Below are positions 1 through 55,269 of a DNA stretch of 64,000 nt, piece by piece. The DNA is from an uncultured Alphaproteobacteria bacterium (lineage in GTDB: Bacteria; Pseudomonadota; Alphaproteobacteria; Micavibrionales; UBA1664): assembly GCA_943789475.1 (NCBI GenBank), contig CALSUG010000003.1, positions 62,001 to 126,000 of the forward strand, read 5' to 3'. Under the pieces are notes generated by a model. The model did not search any database. It was not told the origin of the DNA and worked only from the letters and a program-made list of their open reading frames with translations. The position numbers and the translations under genes were made by a program. How positions within the stretch are numbered: position 1 is the stretch's first letter; each line of letters starts with the position of its first letter.

Positions 1-291
1 TGCAACAGGGATCAACGATGTAAAATCCAACATCTCACGAAATAATATTGGTACAGCCATTAACAAGCCAAGGACAACAATCGCAAAAAATATAATTAAA
101 ATGACAAGCGCGGACAACCAACGCGGAATCGATCTTTTTTGTAACTTTGTAACAAGAGGATTTAAGAGATATGCAACAGCAAAACCAACAACGAACGGCG
201 CCATAATGCCTCCGAACAACCATACAAAAGTAATAATGCCAAAAACAACAAATCCCCAAAATTGGAACGATTTTTCCTGTAAATACGACAT
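1..291 (-). CDS. AI-2E family transporter (PerM-like), N-terminal part, cut by window edge
   Basis: The reading frame starts at an ATG and stays open for 97 codons to the window edge, so only the N-terminus is present. It shows two hydrophobic segments (about residues 11-40 and 60-85) separated by AYLLNPLVTKLQKR, a pattern typical of the AI-2E/PerM permease family (eight-helix inner-membrane proteins, mostly of unknown substrate). The downstream part lies outside the window. Its start is 19 bases beyond the stop of the DUF2066 gene on the same strand, so the two are probably co-transcribed; this pairing is familiar in alphaproteobacteria. Substrate cannot be inferred. Confidence 0.8.
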   Translation of the reverse strand, partial: MSYLQEKSFQFWGFVVFGIITFVWLFGGIMAPFVVGFAVAYLLNPLVTKLQKRSIPRWLSALVILIIFFAIVVLGLLMAVPILFREMLDFTSLIPVA

Positions 292-27853: not shown

Positions 27854-28935
27854 TTAATCCCCTAAACAAATTCCAAGACTACGCGCAGTATGAACCAACG
27901 TTCCATCGACATTCACATCCTGATACGTTGCAATCGCATCTTCAATTGCAACATCAACAACCTTACGATTTTGCCACGCAACCATACGTCCAAATTGACC
28001 TTCCTTAATCAAATCAACCGCACGCACACCAAATGCCGATGCAATCATACGATCATGATATGTTGGTTGCGCACCGCGTTGAATATGTCCTAAAACTGTT
28101 ACACGTGTTTCCGATCCTGTAACTTGTGCAATTTTTTCACCTAAATAATCACCAATACCACCAAGGCGTTTTTGACCATCTGCAAATGTTTTTTGCAATG
28201 GTTCGCCATTTTCATCCTTTACCGCCTCGGACACAACGACAAGGGCAAAAATTACGCCCTTTATCTTTTACATTTTGGATTTTTTCCGCGATTGATTCTA
28301 ATGTATATGGGATTTCAGGGATAAGAATAACATCCGCACCACCCGCAATACCCGCATTTAACGCAATATGACCTGCGTCACGGCCCATCACCTCTAACAC
28401 CATGACACGATCATGCGATGCCGCCGTTGGTTGCAAACGATCCAACGCCTCGGTTGCAATCGTTACCGCGGGTATCAAAACCAACGGATACTTCCGTACA
28501 ACCCAAATCATTATCGATTGTTTTGGGAACACCCACCATTGTTGAAACCACCACGTTCGGCCAATTTTTTCAAAATTGCAAATGATCCATCGCCACCAAT
28601 ACCAATGATCGCATCAAGACCTAATGTCTCGATCCCTTTTAAAATATCACCGCTAATGTCTTTTGTTTGTGCCGTCATCCATAGGATATGCAAAGGGATT
28701 CCCCTTGTTCATCGTTCCTAAAATCGTACCGCCAAGACGTAAAACCGTACCATCAAATTCGGTTGCACTTAATTTCCGCACATCGGGTGGATCGGACAAC
28801 AAACCATGTGTTCCATTAAGGATGCCATAAACTTCCCATCCTAGTTGATCTTGCATAATGCGTGACCGATCGTATAACGGCATTTAGCCCTGCACAATCA
28901 CCACCACTGGTTAATATTCCGATTTTTTTGCTCAT
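27854..28935 (-). pseudogene. pfkA: 6-phosphofructokinase, broken by five +1 insertions
   Basis: Phosphofructokinase makes fructose 1,6-bisphosphate in glycolysis. Fragments in three frames join into 358 residues: KKIGILTSGGDCAGLNAVIR, GWEVYGILNGTHGLL, LDAIIGIGGDGS, VGVPKTIDNDLG, VMVLEVMGRDAGHIAL and VTVLGHIQRGAQPTYHDR. Shifts map near 28851, to TTTT 28661-28664, near 28541, to GGG 28470-28472 and to AAAAA 28247-28251; deleting one base at each restores the frame. The residue equivalent to E. coli 104 is Gly, suggesting ATP use, while the 124 equivalent is Lys (VPKTIDND), a mixed type. The pattern points to sequencing insertions rather than loss of the gene. With pgi at 59-60 kb it suggests a working upper glycolysis. 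Confidence 0.85.
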
Positions 28936-29037
28936 ATCGTATAGTACACAAAGAAATAGCTTAAAAAAGGGGCTTTTTTCTGTTATCTTCCCATAAATTA
29001 ACAGTTATTTTAAATAGAATGCGATAGAATAAAAACT

Positions 29038-29245
29038 ATGGATAGTGAATACGAAGAAGAATTATTGGCAAAACTCGCCGAAATGCGTGAAGAACATAGC
29101 GATCTTGACCAAGTTATTTCAAAATTAATGGTCACACCACCTGTTGATTTTATTCAATTACAACGCCTTAAAAAAAGAAAATTATCGTCTCAAAGATGAA
29201 ATTCGAAAAATTGAGAGTAGTTTGATTCCCGATATTATCGCTTAA
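29038..29245 (+). pseudogene. YdcH/DUF465 family small protein, one frameshift
   Basis: A short coiled-coil protein of unknown function. It opens MDSEYEEELLAKLAEMREEH and continues VDFIQLQRLKK, then needs one base removed (in the seven-A run at about 29170 or the next few bases) to reach RLKDEIRKIESSLIPDIIA and a stop, giving 68 residues. H-x-x-L-D and LKK...LKDEI are the family hallmarks. It is convergent with the SemiSWEET gene, 8 bases apart. The gene is too short and broken to be obvious in a simple frame scan. Confidence 0.65.
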
Positions 29246-29253
29246 CAAAATAA

Positions 29254-29555
29254 TCATTGCGATGATATATTTAAACAATCTTGCATCTTCATTTCATTTT
29301 TAACTTTTATAAAAATGATTGGGGCTATCATCGCCATCAAACATATGCCAGAAAAAACTAACGCCATACTATCATAGGCAAGACCATTAATTAACCACCC
29401 TAAATTTCCCAAAAAAGATAGAGTTAATGTCATTAAAGATAACCCCTCGGTACTCCGCGTTCTAACTGTTTTAATAAGTTGAGGCAACATACTACACGTT
29501 GCAATAATTGAAGCAAAAAATCCCCGCAAAATCACCAATAGTAATCATTATCCAT
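29254..29555 (-). pseudogene. SemiSWEET (PQ-loop/MtN3-type) transporter, two frameshifts near the start
   Basis: A three-helix half-SWEET protein; homologues form dimers that carry sugars across the inner membrane. The body is open: CSMLPQLIKTVRTRSTEGLS (the PQ motif), then SFLGNLGWLINGLAYDSMALV and IAPIIFIKVKNEM. The N-terminus needs two single bases removed (near 29543 and 29521) to start at an ATG and read DNDTIGDFAGIFASIIATC, giving 99 residues, a normal size. The proline-glutamine pair and conserved Asn (GNLGWLINGL) are intact. Substrate unknown. Confidence 0.75.
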
Positions 29556-29957
29556 AGTCAAAATTATAATCGATACTTTTTAATTTTTGATTAAAGCATA
29601 TAGCAGATAAGAAAAATTCACACGAATGAACAATGATCGGATATAATATTTTGATCAACGCCATAATTGCGGCATTGTGAGGAGAAGATGACGATTATAT
29701 TTTTAAAATCGTCAAACGAACTAAGTAATTCCAATTTAATTGATTAAAACCAATATGTTATATTTACATTATTGTGAATATACGTTGGTAAAACATAAAA
29801 ATCTAAATCGGCTAAGTCATTTCACCCTTAACCTATTGAAATATATAAAAACGCATCAATTGAATCAAACCATTTTAAGTCTAATTTCGACTACCCTTGT
29901 CACCCCATGTCGAACACCATAAAATAATCAACGTTAAATTATTAAAAGGGAAATATA
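29556..29957 (+). other. Gene-free AT-rich stretch upstream of fumC
   Basis: No convincing gene on either strand. A TATAAT hexamer (29642-29647) lacks a -35 partner. A purine-rich GAGGAG lies close to an ATG (29688) that opens only a 19-codon frame beginning MTIIFLKSSN; because this region contains spurious insertions, a longer small gene could be hidden. The fumC promoter is presumably here but no consensus pair was found. Confidence 0.4.
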
Positions 29958-31359
29958 ATGACAAGAACACGTATCGAAACAGACTCACTTGGGTAAAATG
30001 AAGGTGCCTGCAAAAAAATATTGGGGCGCACAAACACAAAGGTCATTAGAAAATTTTAAAATTGGTGGCGAACAACAACCCCTACCCCTTATTCGCGCAC
30101 TTGGTATTGTTAAAAAGGCCGCGGCACAGGCCAATATGGATATGAAATCCCTCCCTAAAAAATTGGGAAAAGAAATTGTGGCGGCCGCCGATGAAGTCAT
30201 CGATGGTACATTGGTTGACCATTTTCCACTTGTCGTATGGCAAACGGGTTCAGGCACACAATCAAACATGAATACAAACGAAGTCATCGCCAACCGCGCC
30301 ATCGAAATGATGGGGGGAAAGATTGGATCAAAAGATCCCGTACACCCAAACGATCACGTAAACATGGGACAATCATCCAACGATACATTCCCAACCGCGA
30401 TGCATATTGCGGGCGGGTGAACAGGTTCATCACGCCCTCCTCCCTGCGCTTGAAAAAATGCAAAAGGCTTTGGATGCAAAGGCAAAAGAATATAAAGATA
30501 TCGTCAAAATTGGCCCGCACACATTTACAAGACGCAACACCACTAACATTGGGACAGGAATTTTCTGGATACGCCCAACAAATGAAATATGCGGTTGAGC
30601 GTGGTAAAGGCGTGCATGCCACGCGTGATGTTGCTTTGCCCAAGGTGGAACCGCCGTTGGAACGGGGATCAATTCTAAAAAAGGATTTGATAAAAAATTT
30701 GCGGAAAAGGCGTCAAAAATAACAGGGTTAAAATTCAAAACTGCACCAAATAAATTCGAAAGCCTTGCCGCACATTGATGCCTTGGGTTGAACTGTCAGG
30801 CGCATTGAACACGATCGCCGCTAGCCTCATGAAAATTGCAAATGACATTCGCTTGCTTGGGTCTGGCCCTCGATCAGGAATTGGCGAGCTTTCCCTTCCT
30901 GCAAACGAACCGGGATCATCCATCATGCCAGGAAAGGTAAACCCAACACAATCCGAAGCAATGACACAAGTTTGTGCACAAGTGATGGGTAACCATGTGG
31001 CTGTAACAGTCGGCGGATCAAACGGTCATTTTGAATTGAATGTATTCAAACCCGTTATGATTTATAACGTCCTTCAATCTATTAGATTGATTAGCGATTA
31101 GTTGTCACAGCTTCACTGATAATTGTATCGTTGGAATCAAACCAAACATCGATCGTAATTGGACCAATTAATGAATGACAGCCTGATGCTTGTGACCGCT
31201 CTTAACCCGCATATTGGGTATGATAATGCGGCGAAAATTGCGAAAAAGGCACATGCGGATGGCACAACATTGAAGGAAGCAGGTATCGCCCTCGAACTTT
31301 TGACTGAGAAACAGTTTGATAAATGGATAAAACCAAAGGAAATGATCAAACCGAAATAG
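29958..31359 (+). pseudogene. fumC: Class II fumarate hydratase, broken by ten inserted bases
   Basis: FumC interconverts fumarate and malate in the TCA cycle. All conserved blocks are present, spread over three frames: [89 protein letters not shown], the signature [28 protein letters not shown] and [13 protein letters not shown]. The frame is restored by deleting single bases near 29995, 30412, 30510, 30608, 30637, 30774, 30785 and 31098, and two near 31152. The result is 463 residues (E. coli FumC has 467). No deletion or missing block is seen, so the organism probably has a working enzyme. A terminator follows. Confidence 0.9.
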
Positions 31360-31371
31360 AGATACAAAAAG

Positions 31372-31399
31372 CCCCGCAAAATGCGGGGTTTCTTTTTTT
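31372..31399. terminator. Rho-independent terminator between fumC and the convergent unknown gene
   Basis: CCCCGC and GCGGGG pair across a 5-base loop (AAAAT), followed on the plus strand by TTTC and seven T, and flanked on the other side by A-rich sequence, so it may act in both directions. Confidence 0.8.
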
Positions 31400-31821
31400 A
31401 TTCCATGGTGCCCATTTTTTGTCGTGATGCCGCGGCCAACATTTGCATCGTATCGATATGATTTTGTGATGCGGCCTTTTTACGCAATGGTGCGGGAAAC
31501 AGATTCTTGCCCAAATTGTGGGGCATCTTTTGATGCAAAACCACGAAGGATATCCTTGCCCAACTGGTCTTTTTTACTGGACGATAACGCCGCGTCTTGT
31601 GCTTTTTCCTCTAACATTTCTTCGTTAGATTTCAGCATACGATTAAGAACACGTTGTATGGCATATGCCGTAATACCGTTAAGGTGTGGACGTGTCATTT
31701 CCAACAACAGCTTATGATCTTCATAAAGCCATGCTGAGATCTGCCTTTTTGCATCATTCACATTGCCATTATTCATGCGCAATGCATCTTTAATACGATT
31801 TTGGGTATAATTTAAACTCAT
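31398..31821 (-). pseudogene. Uncharacterised protein next to the AAA+ ATPase, one frameshift
   Basis: No family is recognised. From MSLNYTQNRIKDALRMNNGN the protein is rich in helices and charged residues (NDAKRQISAWLYEDHKLLLE, HLNGITAYAIQRVLNRM). Near 31503 one extra T throws the frame; removing it continues LFPAPLRKKAASQNHIDTMQ and ends in RQKMGTME, 140 residues in all. It lies 43 bases downstream of the AAA+ ATPase gene on the same strand, so it could be a partner of it. No signal peptide. The stop overlaps the edge of the terminator. Confidence 0.6.
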
Positions 31822-31864
31822 AACAAATTCAGTATTGCACGAAACGCACCAAAATGGAAATTTA

Positions 31865-34032
31865 TCATTTATCACCAAATCCCAATTTAGTAGGCCCAGA
31901 TGATTGTTGAGCCGAAGCAGCAACCCTTCTATCTATAATTTGTTTGGGAGTTTGCCCTAAGAAATGAACGTTAAATGATTTTCCTGCTCTTTTAATATCA
32001 CCAATTGCCCTTGCTGGTGTGCCCTTTGGAGGTCGTGCGCCTGTATATTTTTTATACGCGGATGCCAGTTGTTTGCCGTCAATTTTACCTAATTTCATCT
32101 TTACATCCATAAAGGCACGAAACTCATCTGACATTTGAGAATTTTCCTGCTGAATTAAAATAACTGGTGCCCTATGGGTTTCCATTTCCTCCATAAAACA
32201 TTCAATCATTTTTTTACGATCACTGTCATGAGCATCTGAAAATAATTTATCAAAGTTTTTAACAACCAATATAGCATCCATTTTTGCCGCATTTGCAAAG
32301 GCAATTGACACATGGTGAACAGGATCTGTTTGTTGTGTAGGTATAATCATCACATCCATATCCTCGGATGACACATGACGCATCGTTTTTTCCGCTAAAT
32401 AGTTTGCAATTGTGCTTTTACCAACTTTACTATCTCCTTCTATCAATATTGATACTGGACGTTGATCATTAGATGCATCTGTAAAAATTTTCTCCAATAT
32501 CGGTAAAATCTAACGATGAAGATAGATAGTTGGGATTATATTGTGCTGGAACAGGATTGTTAGAATTATACCCTGTTCTAAATCCGCCAAAATTCCACCG
32601 ATGATTTTTCTTGAACCTGCTCAATGATGTCATCTATACCACCATCAAGAAGCATCGCGGCCTCACATGATTGTGCGATCACACGCGGAGGCGCATCAAA
32701 CATACGTGCTAGTTTTAACGATGCACCACGCCCCAATTTTAATTTGTTTTTCTTAATATGATGTGCCCAAATATCCTTGGAAATCAGAGTTGGCTGGGTA
32801 CCCCACACATAAAGGAAATTTAAACCTTTGTTTTACTGATCCATGAAATTTACCAATATCATTGGCAAGCCATATTGTTGGCACTGTATTTTCTTCTAAC
32901 GCTCTATTCAAAAGAATTTTACTACCTGTATCTGCTGCTTTAGTTGGAATCCTCCCCCTTAACAAGAAGATCTTCCATTTCATCCATTAAACATGCTGAA
33001 TCATTAGTATCACTAAGGAATGCCTGCGCCTGTTGAAGGCGCATCAACCGTTTTGATGAATCCATTTTTCCGCCATCATCACCATAGGTTGTGTTGCTAT
33101 CAATATCCTCGCCAATTGCATAAGCACTTAGGGCCCGCCGCCTTACAAATTGCTTTTGCCAATTCTGTTTTACCACTGCCTGCGGGACCGTAAAGAACAA
33201 CATTAACCCCTTTTATACCTTCCGCAGCCGCCTTTTTCATGACTTTTACAATTTTTCGTGCCTGAGCATCTAAATGTTGGAAATTTTTTTCAATTGTTAG
33301 GGTTGCCTTTACTGGTGTACCCACAATTTCTTCAACAAGCCGCGTTTCATCGAATTCAGATTCAAGTAATAACTCCTTAATTCTCGGATCAATGATGGGA
33401 AAGGCAAAACCATTATTTACCCCCTCATCGTAATCTAGCAGGCCATACTCGGTAAGCTTTCCACTTGGCGATATTATTTTTGCAATTTCTTTATAATCAC
33501 TATCACGACCTAAACCTAAGGCAATAAATGCAAAAAAACGTTCCGGAGACGATTTTAACAAATCTGTAATGAAGTTAAAGAATGATGGATCAACAGCTGA
33601 AATTGAATGAATATAGACAAGACACTCAACCTCCAAATCACTTAGATTTAACCTTGTTGCCAGTTTTTCTACATTTTTTGCGAATGTATTTTTAGGCGGG
33701 TTGTCGAATTTTACCTGAGCTTCTGCAAAGGTAATAATAGAATCCCAATCTTTTTGACTCACTTTACCTCGTGAAGATCCTGTTGGATATTGACTAACAT
33801 AGTTATCTTTTGCATCCTTTTTTTGAGTAGCAGGAAACTCCATTCCCGCCAATTCCATTATATCTCTGAAATTGTTTTCAAAACCTGAGGCTATTTCATA
33901 AGCTAGTTTTGAATTTCTAGGCACGCTCTTAACCACATTGTTAACAAGACGGTTAACCAACCATTCAGAATAACTATCATCCTCTTCTAAGATTGCCTGA
34001 ACTGCGCTTTTTTCTCTTAATTTTGAAACCAT
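31865..34032 (-). pseudogene. Two-domain AAA+ ATPase (NSF-like layout), broken by five +1 insertions
   Basis: Reassembly gives 720 residues. Residues 1-250 form an N-terminal helical domain (begins MVSKLREKSAVQAILEEDD). The first AAA+ domain has Walker A GPAGSGKTELAK, Walker B ACLMDEMEDLL, a sensor-1-like TIWLAND, and a lid region RVIAQSCEAAMLL. The second has Walker A IEGDSKVGKSTIANYLAEK, but its Walker B region (AILVVKNFDKLF) lacks the usual DE, suggesting weak or no hydrolysis. Shifts lie near 33134 (CCC), 32950, 32780, 32592 (TTTT) and 32493; one deletion at each restores the frame. Substrate unknown. A remodelling ATPase of COG0464 type is the best guess. Confidence 0.75.
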
Positions 34033-34122: not shown

Positions 34123-34150
34123 CAATTGTTATTTAAAATAATAACAATTG
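34123..34150. repeat. Perfect 11-bp inverted repeat overlapping a -35 box (possible operator)
   Basis: CAATTGTTATT and AATAACAATTG are exact reverse complements separated by 6 bases. The right arm runs into the TTGACA of the promoter that follows, and the repeat lies between the divergent AAA+ ATPase gene and the unknown plus-strand gene. A repressor binding there would block the promoter. Confidence 0.6.
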
Positions 34151-34177
34151 ACATATTTTAAAATTTTCTTATATAAT
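34148..34177 (+). promoter_or_regulatory. Near-consensus sigma-70 promoter of the 137-residue unknown gene
   Basis: TTGACA and TATAAT are both perfect, with an 18-base spacer. The -10 ends 11 bases before the ATG, so the expected transcript has a leader of only a few bases. Confidence 0.75.
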
Positions 34178-34188
34178 GATAACCTATT

Positions 34189-34602
34189 ATGACTGTTACC
34201 CTTGACGATGTTTATGACCATTTACACAAACGCATACGATCCGCGTTTAATGGTGTTTCATTATCAAAACAAGGCAACCACATTGCCCTGACATCAAAAA
34301 ACAATTCAGGACAAGAAGTGCAAACAAAGATTAATTTTCACCCTGAAGTTGTAAAAAATGACAAACCAACTCAGCGTAAACAAGTAAGTGACAATGTATT
34401 CATCTATCCATCAAATCACTTTGCACGCCCTGCATCGGTAAGCATTGATATAGGCATCGCACAAATTTCAAGTCACAAAACGGCGACACGGTTCCCTATT
34501 ACACAAAATAATGATGATACACTGGACGCGGAATGGGACACAATCGCCACAGGCGCCGTACGCGATTTAAAACAAAAATTAAAGCGCAGAGATTTCTCGT
34601 AA
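34189..34602 (+). CDS. Uncharacterised 137-residue protein
   Basis: No family is recognised. The product is soluble and basic at the C-terminus (VRDLKQKLKRRDFS), starting MTVTLDDVYDHLHKRIRSAF. It has no signal peptide, membrane segment or obvious motif. It is expressed from an unusually good promoter carrying an operator-like dyad and has hardly any 5' leader. The 3' end overlaps the convergent mfd by 24 bases. A regulated single gene is the likely arrangement; the divergent AAA+ ATPase could share the control region. Confidence 0.65.
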   Translation: MTVTLDDVYDHLHKRIRSAFNGVSLSKQGNHIALTSKNNSGQEVQTKINFHPEVVKNDKPTQRKQVSDNVFIYPSNHFARPASVSIDIGIAQISSHKTATRFPITQNNDDTLDAEWDTIATGAVRDLKQKLKRRDFS

Positions 34603-37600
34603 AATTGATCGAGTACCCTTGATCCGTTGATCGGCGGACGTCCACCCACGTGGGAAAAATAATTTTTGATCTGGACGCAACTTAACAGTACCTGCCTTTG
34701 ATTGAATAAACTGCATCACACCTGTCGGATTAATAGGCGTATTATTATAAAACGTCATTAACACACCTTTTGGCCCCGCCTCGACATGGCTGATATTCAC
34801 TTGCTTGCACAGTTGTTTAATCGTGATGAGTTGAAGTAAGTTTTCAACCTCGGTCGGCAGCGCGCCAAAACGGTCAATCATTTCCGCGGCGAATGATTCA
34901 ATTTCACCCGCATCATCCAATGTCGCGATACGACGGTACAGCGACATACGCACGGACAAATCCTCAACATAATTTTCAGGGATCATAATGGATGTGCCAA
35001 GGTTAATTTCCGGTGAAAAATTTTGCTCCATCGCCTCAATATTATCATGTGTGACACCTGCACGTGCGGCGGCAACGGCTTCTTCCAACATTTGTTGGTA
35101 CAGCTCTACACCAACTTCTTTCACGTGACCCGATTGTTGCTCACCGACCAAATTACCTGCACCGCGAATATCCATGTCGTGCGATGCCAATTGGAACCCA
35201 GCGCCCAACGTGTCCAACATGCCTATGACTTCCAAACGTTTCATCGCGACATCGGATAATTTTTTATCTTGTTGATAGGTGAGGTATGCGTAGGCACGAA
35301 TTTTTGATCGACCAATGCGTCCACGAATTTGATATAGTTGCGCAAGGCCAAACATGTCCGATCGATGTACAATCATCGTATTTGCACTTGGCACATCAAT
35401 TCCCGATTCAATGATATTGGTTGCCAATAAAACATCATATTGTTTTTCGTAGAAGGCGGTCATGCGGTCTTCCAAATCACCCGGTGCCAACTGTCCATGC
35501 GCGGTGATCATTTTCACCTCGGGCACCAATTCCTTAATATGATCTTCCATTTCTTTTAAATCTTTAACACGCGGACAAACGATAAAGCTTTGCCCTCCGC
35601 GATGGTGCTCACGCAATAACGCTTCACGTATAACGACAGGATCAAACGGCATAACAAATGATCGTATCGCCAACCGATCAACAGGTGGCGTGGTGATAAG
35701 CGACATATCACGCACACCCGTGAGTGACATTTGCAATGTTCGTGGAATTGGCGTCGCGGTAAGGGTCAGGACGTGAACATCCTTTTTCAAATCCTTTAAA
35801 CGCTCCTTTTGTTTCACACCAAAACGTTGTTCTTCATCAACAATAACAACACCAAGGTGATCGAATTTTATCGCGTCTGATAACAACGCATGCGTTCCGA
35901 TAACAATATTCACCGAACCATCTTGTAATCCATCCTTGGTTAATTTTTGGTCTTTTGCACTAACCAATCGTGATAAATGTCCAATGCGTAATGGAACACC
36001 TTGAAAACGATTACAGAAATTTTCGTAATGTTGTCGTGCCAATAAAGTTGTTGGGGCGACAATCGCAACCTGCCCACCCGCCATCGCGGTAACATATGCC
36101 GCGCGGATTGCGATTTCGGTTTTACCAAAACCAACATCACCACATACCAATCGATCCATCGGTTTACCCGATTTCAAATCATCCAAAACGGATGCAATGG
36201 ACGATAATTGATCTTCGGTTTCATGGTATGGGAAACGTGCGGCAAAATCATTATAAACGGCATCATCAACCGCGAATATATCCGCCTTTTGCAATGCACG
36301 TGCGGCGGCAATATCGATTAATTTACCTGCCATTTCTAATAAATTCTTCTTAACCTTCGCACGGCGTGCCTGCCACCCTGCACCACCCAGTCTGTCCAAA
36401 TTAACAATGCTGTCCGCGTCACCATAACGTGATAAAACTTCAATATTTTCAACAGGAACAAACAATTTGTCCCCCTCGTGATAAACAATCTTTACACAAT
36501 CATGTTTAACCCCATGAACGTTCAGCGTTTCTAATCCTTCAAATCGACCAATCCCATGTTCGGTATGAACAACAAAATCACCCTCGGATAAACTGGATAC
36601 TTCACGAAGGAAAGCATCCGCCTTACGCTTGCGTGATTTTGTTTTACGCACCAATCGATCGCCAAGGATATCTTGTTCCGATACAACGACAAATCGATCA
36701 TTCACAAAACCGCGTTCCAACGGCAATGTGATGAGGGTTATTGAACCATCCTTTGCCTTTACAACCTGTTCAAAATTATCGCATATTTTTAACCCGACAA
36801 TGCCGTGCGCATCCAACAATCCCTTTAACCGTTCCCGCGCACCGTCACTATATGCATTAACAATTATTTTTTTACCAATGTGATTGTTGAAATATGTTTT
36901 AACGGCCGCGAATACATCACCATCGGGCAAGGCACGTACATCGCCAAAATCGCGCCCTTGTTTCGCATCTGTTTCATTCGCGGCAAAGGGTGAAAACATT
37001 TCCGCATTCGGCATGTCTTTTGTAAAACAACTATCAATCGGCACCGCGTGATAAATGCTTTGTGGGTTTGATTTATTTTTCTTGTTTGATTCCGCGGTTT
37101 GTTTGGCCAGTGTTTGGCGGGCTTGGTAAAAATCTTCTATTTGATCCCATGCCTCCACCATTGCCTGATCACATTGATGATCCATCGACACAATCGCATT
37201 TGGAACATAATCAAACACACTCACCATTTCTTCAAAAAACAATGATTGCCAATGTTCCGTTCCATTAATTTTACGCCCATCCGTAATCGCCTCGTACAAC
37301 GGATCAATATTATTCACCGCGCCAAATAATTCACGATAGGTTGATCGAAAACGCGAAATCGATTCCTTCGTCATTGGAATTTCGGTTGCTGGATTAAGCG
37401 ATAGCGAATTAATCACCGTTGATGATTTTTGCGTCACTGGGTCAAATTCTTTAATCGATTCAACCTCGGCTCCAAATAAATCCAACCGCACGGGTGCATC
37501 GGCCGTGGCAGGCCACAAATCAACAATACCACCACGAATGGCAAATTCACCACTATCGCGTACCGTGTCGGTACGGCTGTAACCATTTTCACTGAGGAAT

Positions 37601-38088
37601 GTTTTTAGGTTATTTTCATCCAAACGACCACCCGTTGTGGCGTTTAGGCCGCCCATACTGGACAAATATTGCGGTGGAATAACCTTGCGCATTACCGCAT
37701 TCACCGTTGTGATCACAACACATGGTTTTTTAATATCGCTACCCATACGTGATTTTAATTGTCCTAACGCCTTCATCCGTTGACCAATAATAGCCGTGTT
37801 GGGCGATATACGGTCATAGGGCAAACAATCCCAAGCAGGGAAATAAATTACCTCAATCTCAGGCGCAAAAAACGACAATAAATCTTGCACAGTTTGCGCG
37901 CGAATATCATCCATCGCAATATGACATGCAACGGCACCACCATTGCGTTGTGCATCCATTGCACGTTCGCGTAATACAAACGCATCTTGTCCTTCTGGCA
38001 CACCAGATAGGATTTCATGTTTTGGACTATCGTTTAATTTGGGTGTTTCCATCGCCCTTTTTATAAAGGGATAGGACGCATATTCCAA
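34579..38088 (-). CDS. mfd: Transcription-repair coupling factor Mfd
   Basis: Mfd pushes stalled RNA polymerase off damaged DNA and recruits UvrA. The 1169-residue protein has the UvrB-homology N-terminal part (GVPEGQDAFVLRERAMDAQR, FFAPEIEVIYFPAWDCLPYD), the polymerase-interacting domain (GDFVVHTEHGIGRFEGLETL), RecG-like helicase domains (Walker A CGDVGFGKTEIA, DEEQ box VIVDEEQRFG, TATPIPRTLQMSLTG, QIRGRIGR) and the C-terminal TRCF domain (GALPTEVENLL). Length is standard. sdhE lies 3 bases upstream on the same strand; recG is divergent beyond it, a familiar alphaproteobacterial layout. Confidence 0.96.
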   Translation of the reverse strand: MEYASYPFIKRAMETPKLNDSPKHEILSGVPEGQDAFVLRERAMDAQRNGGAVACHIAMDDIRAQTVQDLLSFFAPEIEVIYFPAWDCLPYDRISPNTAIIGQRMKALGQLKSRMGSDIKKPCVVITTVNAVMRKVIPPQYLSSMGGLNATTGGRLDENNLKTFLSENGYSRTDTVRDSGEFAIRGGIVDLWPATADAPVRLDLFGAEVESIKEFDPVTQKSSTVINSLSLNPATEIPMTKESISRFRSTYRELFGAVNNIDPLYEAITDGRKINGTEHWQSLFFEEMVSVFDYVPNAIVSMDHQCDQAMVEAWDQIEDFYQARQTLAKQTAESNKKNKSNPQSIYHAVPIDSCFTKDMPNAEMFSPFAANETDAKQGRDFGDVRALPDGDVFAAVKTYFNNHIGKKIIVNAYSDGARERLKGLLDAHGIVGLKICDNFEQVVKAKDGSITLITLPLERGFVNDRFVVVSEQDILGDRLVRKTKSRKRKADAFLREVSSLSEGDFVVHTEHGIGRFEGLETLNVHGVKHDCVKIVYHEGDKLFVPVENIEVLSRYGDADSIVNLDRLGGAGWQARRAKVKKNLLEMAGKLIDIAAARALQKADIFAVDDAVYNDFAARFPYHETEDQLSSIASVLDDLKSGKPMDRLVCGDVGFGKTEIAIRAAYVTAMAGGQVAIVAPTTLLARQHYENFCNRFQGVPLRIGHLSRLVSAKDQKLTKDGLQDGSVNIVIGTHALLSDAIKFDHLGVVIVDEEQRFGVKQKERLKDLKKDVHVLTLTATPIPRTLQMSLTGVRDMSLITTPPVDRLAIRSFVMPFDPVVIREALLREHHRGGQSFIVCPRVKDLKEMEDHIKELVPEVKMITAHGQLAPGDLEDRMTAFYEKQYDVLLATNIIESGIDVPSANTMIVHRSDMFGLAQLYQIRGRIGRSKIRAYAYLTYQQDKKLSDVAMKRLEVIGMLDTLGAGFQLASHDMDIRGAGNLVGEQQSGHVKEVGVELYQQMLEEAVAAARAGVTHDNIEAMEQNFSPEINLGTSIMIPENYVEDLSVRMSLYRRIATLDDAGEIESFAAEMIDRFGALPTEVENLLQLITIKQLCKQVNISHVEAGPKGVLMTFYNNTPINPTGVMQFIQSKAGTVKLRPDQKLFFPRGWTSADQRIKGTRSILREISAL

Positions 38089-55230: not shown

Positions 55231-55269
55231 TGGTCGAAATTCCTACTATGGAATTTCGACCATTTTTTT
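55231..55269 (+). terminator. Very strong rho-independent terminator
   Basis: A perfect 13-bp stem (TGGTCGAAATTCC / GGAATTTCGACCA) with a 6-base loop and seven T directly after. It ends the plus-strand transcription unit and meets the stop of the convergent membrane-protein gene. Confidence 0.9.

Follow-up and report, generated by a model that had tools for sequence, protein, structure and literature searches.

The locus analyzed here lies in a window of 64 kb (the whole stretch of DNA under study) and is built around a 137-codon lineage-specific open reading frame (ORF; 34189..34602, plus strand), which is preceded by a sigma-70 promoter (34148..34177, plus strand) and by a perfect 11-bp inverted repeat running into that promoter (34123..34150, no strand assigned). 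The ORF overlaps by 24 bp the 3' end of its convergent neighbor (34579..38088, minus strand), which we take from its sequence to be mfd, the gene for the transcription-repair coupling factor. On the other side lies a divergent gene for a two-domain AAA+ ATPase (31865..34032, minus strand), split over several frames.

Compared with the intact 728-codon ortholog in the congeneric genome G004, the window ATPase falls into five pieces in three frames. Two genes at 27.8-31.4 kb, presumably phosphofructokinase-like and fumarase-like, are likewise split, while mfd and the gene that we assume to be recG are intact; because of this pattern, local sequence errors are a more likely cause than decay into a pseudogene. 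The affected stretch of three adjacent frame-split genes with intact surroundings (27854-33210) suggests a run of assembly indel errors. The ATPase was found in five of 55 relatives, the genome itself included and one of them at E 3.6e-4 only. In addition, its ortholog at L035:226-2412 (minus strand) matched phrog_10401, a phage ATPase family, over residues 90-674 (E 2.8e-36), hinting at a possible phage link.

The 137-codon ORF and the slot beside mfd

Homology searches with the ORF returned nothing that could assign it to a family. Its own genome was the sole match among 55, with none in the 54 related genomes, and no convincing match was found in the other 384 genomes of the class. Hits in 13 other class genomes (E 0.004-0.09) were rejected as noise, being of low identity over short stretches and in several cases running across stop codons, and a single 20-residue match in an actinomycete from the genome contig search was taken as chance. 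Pfam, NCBIfam, PHROGs and PADLOC gave nothing usable (one PHROGs match reached E 0.053), nor did the IMG/VR viral contigs and phage records, and the Rfam search was also negative. The structure model was poor (pLDDT 52.5), with a best Foldseek match at E 0.1.

That none of the libraries and genomes searched yielded a usable homolog is what would be expected if the ORF were not a gene and the promoter served something else or nothing. We regard that as improbable, since the coding score in the right frame (0.095 per codon) lies above those of the other five frames, only 0.5% of wrong-frame segments score that high, and a perfect promoter stands exactly upstream. The score is nevertheless low for a gene, with only 7.6% of true-gene segments scoring as low.

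Congeneric genomes carry other genes at this place. At the end of mfd, G002 has a dissimilar convergent ORF of 143 codons and G003 one of 134; in G004 the slot is filled by a same-strand gene, and the contig of G001 ends there. Judging from these arrangements, the slot beside mfd is variable. Pairwise BLASTP gave E 0.015, 28 and 9.5 for the slot ORFs of G000, G002 and G003, and homology was not accepted. The ORF thus resembles ORFan genes in variable slots, both in having no homologs and in the dissimilar small ORFs that occupy the congener slot, and no distinctive difference from such genes was seen. Upstream of the slot, a GGAATTA-type element is shared with G002 over 14 identical bases (p = 0.007); it was set aside, given that a pattern search found several other copies at ordinary gene starts. 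In G004, the intergenic sequence that best matches the window (p = 0.07) corresponds to DNA other than the inverted repeat. Separately, a small conserved protein with a MSREYAERRIKEALKL-type start is encoded at 31480-31890 of the window and at loci among L009-L033. It directly follows mfd in many genomes of the order, and in the window the ATPase and the orphan ORF stand between it and mfd.

The sigma-70 promoter and a recurrent 12-bp box

The promoter consists of TTGACA at 34148-34153 and TATAAT at 34172-34177 with a spacer of 18 bp, and it matches the consensus at 12 of 12 positions. No other 12/12 site exists at 30-38 kb or in the whole 64-kb window, where 0.07 perfect promoters would be expected; one arose in 0.05% of simulations of a region of this composition, so that the promoter is well beyond chance. 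The genome of 1.97 Mb holds five perfect TTGACA-16..18-TATAAT sites, this one included, against none for the reversed control. Compared with the sigma-70 consensus TTGACA-N17-TATAAT, both hexamers are perfect and the spacing, at 18 bp, falls within the range of 16-18 bp. The difference is a conserved TATTTT directly after the -35, which is not part of the general sigma-70 consensus.

The -10 hexamer ends 11 nt before the ATG, and no motif resembling a Shine-Dalgarno (SD) sequence is visible, so a predicted start would leave almost no leader. Such leaders do not seem remarkable in this genome. By a simple test, 4 of 27 chosen gene starts in the window had an SD-like motif, and a strong SD preceded 39 of 220 long ORFs in a 464-kb sample made up of the window and 20 stretches of the same genome. 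Among these 220 ORFs, TATAAT-like hexamers ending 0-9 nt before the ATG numbered 34, compared with 16-28 per 10-nt bin further up, a mild enrichment in counts that are rough, the start codons having been taken mechanically. The preliminary description of a near-perfect promoter, the best in the window and potentially very strong, driving a single gene of unknown function with almost no leader, was supported; the strength and the start site themselves are predictions.

Four of the five perfect promoters start with the same 12-bp box, TTGACATATTTT (34148..34159, plus strand, in the window), and the fifth starts with TTGACATA. Copies of the box number 13 in this genome, 12 in G001, three in G004 and two in G003, with none in G002, a total of 30 sites in five congeneric genomes. 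The reversed word, a control that does not keep dinucleotides, was found once in the genome itself and in none of G001-G004. In the 464-kb sample, the box was present seven times against 0.26-0.45 expected under Markov models of orders 2-5. None of 2,999 letter permutations reached seven occurrences there, and any other word of TTGACA plus six letters occurred at most twice.

The best -10 spacing was 17 in 18 of the 30 sites, and at that spacing the T, the A and the final T of the -10 were present in 24, 25 and 22 sites, respectively; the box is hence both over-represented and spaced to a -10. Positions 4-9 upstream of it are A-rich across the 30 sites. At 11 of the 13 sites in the genome itself, an ORF of at least 60 codons starts no more than 130 bp after the expected end of the -10. 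Ten proteins encoded downstream of boxes (seven from this genome and three from G001) gave no match above the curated cut-off in Pfam or NCBIfam. Most boxes are followed by a weak -10, so that only the perfect sites are well described as a strong promoter class. At one site, L144, the -10 is poor and the ORF that follows 119-120 bp on has just 62 codons. In this genome, the box at C3:29050 (L134) coincides with the start codon of a divergent gene, which we take to be isocitrate-dehydrogenase-like, and so does its counterpart in G001 (L141); their conservation was rejected as evidence for that reason, as the start codon may be what is conserved.

Taken together, these data indicate that the promoter is real, unusually good and a member of the box family, and that the best-supported shared element at the locus is TTGACATATTTT and not the inverted repeat. 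Literature searches with the string TTGACATATTTT returned, at the level of search listings, unrelated papers only. What this adds to the preliminary description is that the promoter is part of a small family of sites repeated, usually before other uncharacterized genes.

The inverted repeat over the -35 hexamer

The arms of the repeat, 34123-34133 (CAATTGTTATT) and 34140-34150 (AATAACAATTG), are 100% complementary and are separated by a 6-bp gap. The preliminary description had an exact 11-bp repeat abutting TTGACA-18-TATAAT; the repeat and its exactness were confirmed, while "abutting" has to be corrected to a 3-base overlap, the last TTG of the right arm being the first three bases of TTGACA. 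The same DNA may also be viewed as two CAATTG palindromes whose centers are 22 bp apart.

The repeat lies in an intergenic region of 156 bp with 23% GC, and a perfect arm of at least 11 with a gap of at most 20 arose in 1.2% of Markov-simulated regions of this length and composition. In the 64-kb window, two perfect arms of at least 11 were observed against 0.5 expected in order-2 whole-window simulations, and thus the repeat, selected from 64 kb, exceeds chance only modestly. The second arm pair, at 55231-55262, lies between two ORFs and forms a 13-bp perfect inverted repeat around a 6-bp loop, with a T run behind it on the plus strand, a terminator-like structure. Within 42 kb of intergenic DNA, perfect arms of at least 11 were present at ten places, several of them followed by T runs in the same terminator-like way.

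Two readings of the repeat deserve weight. First, it could be a true operator, on which a dimeric repressor bound to 34123-34150 would cover the -35 and keep the strong promoter off until induced, the repressor being either the product of the gene itself or an unlinked regulator with this single target. We consider this joint proposal doubtful, although the position is apt: the 28-bp site is perfectly symmetric and is placed over the promoter, its two CAATTG centers lie about two helical turns apart, the local chance is low as given above, and among the 30 box promoters an arm of 11 near the -35 is unique to this one (the runner-up has 8). Repressor operators that overlap the -35 share this perfect symmetry and a position that would block polymerase; unlike them, the repeat was seen here with no second site, regulator or conservation. 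No further copy with up to three mismatches was found in the genome (one site in total), and the degenerate core, at the same tolerance, gave 63 sites where the reversed control gave 73, hence no excess and no sign of a regulon; the ten best core sites (L039-L048, the window's own among them) lay mostly within ORFs when inspected. Searching the genome for the same repeat, which had been suggested as a way to the regulator, accordingly yielded a single copy and revealed none. No regulator family was found in the 137-codon ORF or the neighboring ATPase, the structure model of the ORF being too poor to judge a DNA-binding fold. The claim of a tightly repressed gene thus found neither a regulator nor a second site to stand on, and an operator role for this real repeat is a guess.

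Among the 55 genomes, the repeat occurred at up to three mismatches in three, the genome itself counted, and there were no orthologs of the gene for comparison; the two other matches were single three-mismatch sites in other families. At this locus, it is absent from G004 and G002. The preliminary description held that a repeat not conserved in relatives would refute its reading. The lack of conservation seen here does count against that reading, if weakly, since no relatives of the gene are there for comparison.

Second, the AT-rich stretch might be an UP-like element contacted by the alpha subunit of polymerase, with accidental symmetry. This seems to us a possibility of some substance, if still short of an even chance. 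It agrees with the A-richness seen just upstream of the box across the 30 sites, with the low GC content of the intergenic region, and with the ten intergenic places at which comparable arms occur. The DNA directly upstream of the -35 is A/T-rich as in an UP element, a likeness that covers A-richness only; exact symmetry is no feature of UP elements and sets the repeat apart from them. An accidental exact 11-bp symmetry is expected in about 1% of such regions, and one ending inside the -35 would be rarer still.

Shared control with the divergent ATPase, which had been suggested as well, gained no support. The repeat does stand between the starts of both genes, at a distance of about 90 bp from the ATPase start. 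However, the G004 ortholog of the ATPase has neither the repeat nor the small gene, the other three congeners have no ATPase match, and in the stretch between the genes no sigma-70 match on the strand of the ATPase exceeds 9/12, which makes co-regulation of both genes by the repeat very unlikely. In the literature, the string AATAACAATTG led to unrelated papers only (at the level of search listings), and topic searches gave nothing relevant. Alone, the repeat is of small interest, as one unconserved symmetric site before one gene.

A proposed box-class promoter for a lineage-specific gene

The reading toward which we lean, with modest assurance, is that a strong sigma-70 promoter of a genus-level box class serves a lineage-specific gene and that the repeat is a local extra. 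Under this reading, a housekeeping-type promoter would drive the gene placed in the variable slot between mfd and its neighbors, and what would define its class is the extended -35 box TTGACATATTTT, immediately preceded by A-rich DNA and followed after about 17 bp by a -10. Transcription by RNA polymerase would begin only a few nucleotides ahead of the ATG, which would make the message nearly leaderless. The box probably sets expression, either through polymerase itself or through a putative shared factor, and any regulation of the promoter is a prediction. The repeat would belong to this promoter only; in the best case it would be a single-target operator blocking the -35, in the worst AT-rich promoter DNA that is symmetric by accident. 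A more far-reaching proposal, which we offer as speculation and think likely to be wrong, is that TTGACATATTTT is the site of an undescribed genus-specific transcription or polymerase-associated factor co-regulating about 12 lineage-specific genes per genome, the 137-codon gene among them, with the repeat adding a further level of control that is private to this gene.

Should the box class prove real, it may help to show how genes that arose recently or evolve fast become connected to the rest of a genome, and sister species would be using one promoter box for different uncharacterized genes.

Other promoter arrangements were also observed in these genomes. The 11 perfect promoters listed for G001 have in common a spacer of approximately NNATAGG..TCC ahead of TATAAT; the AGGA/TCCT palindrome that this places between the -35 and the -10 makes them a likely operator family in that sister species. 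Similar sites were also present in G002, plus one in the window's own genome at L080:12050. Additionally, eight perfect sigma-70 promoters lie on the same strand within 7 kb at G008:C4:535-7370, an unusual density.
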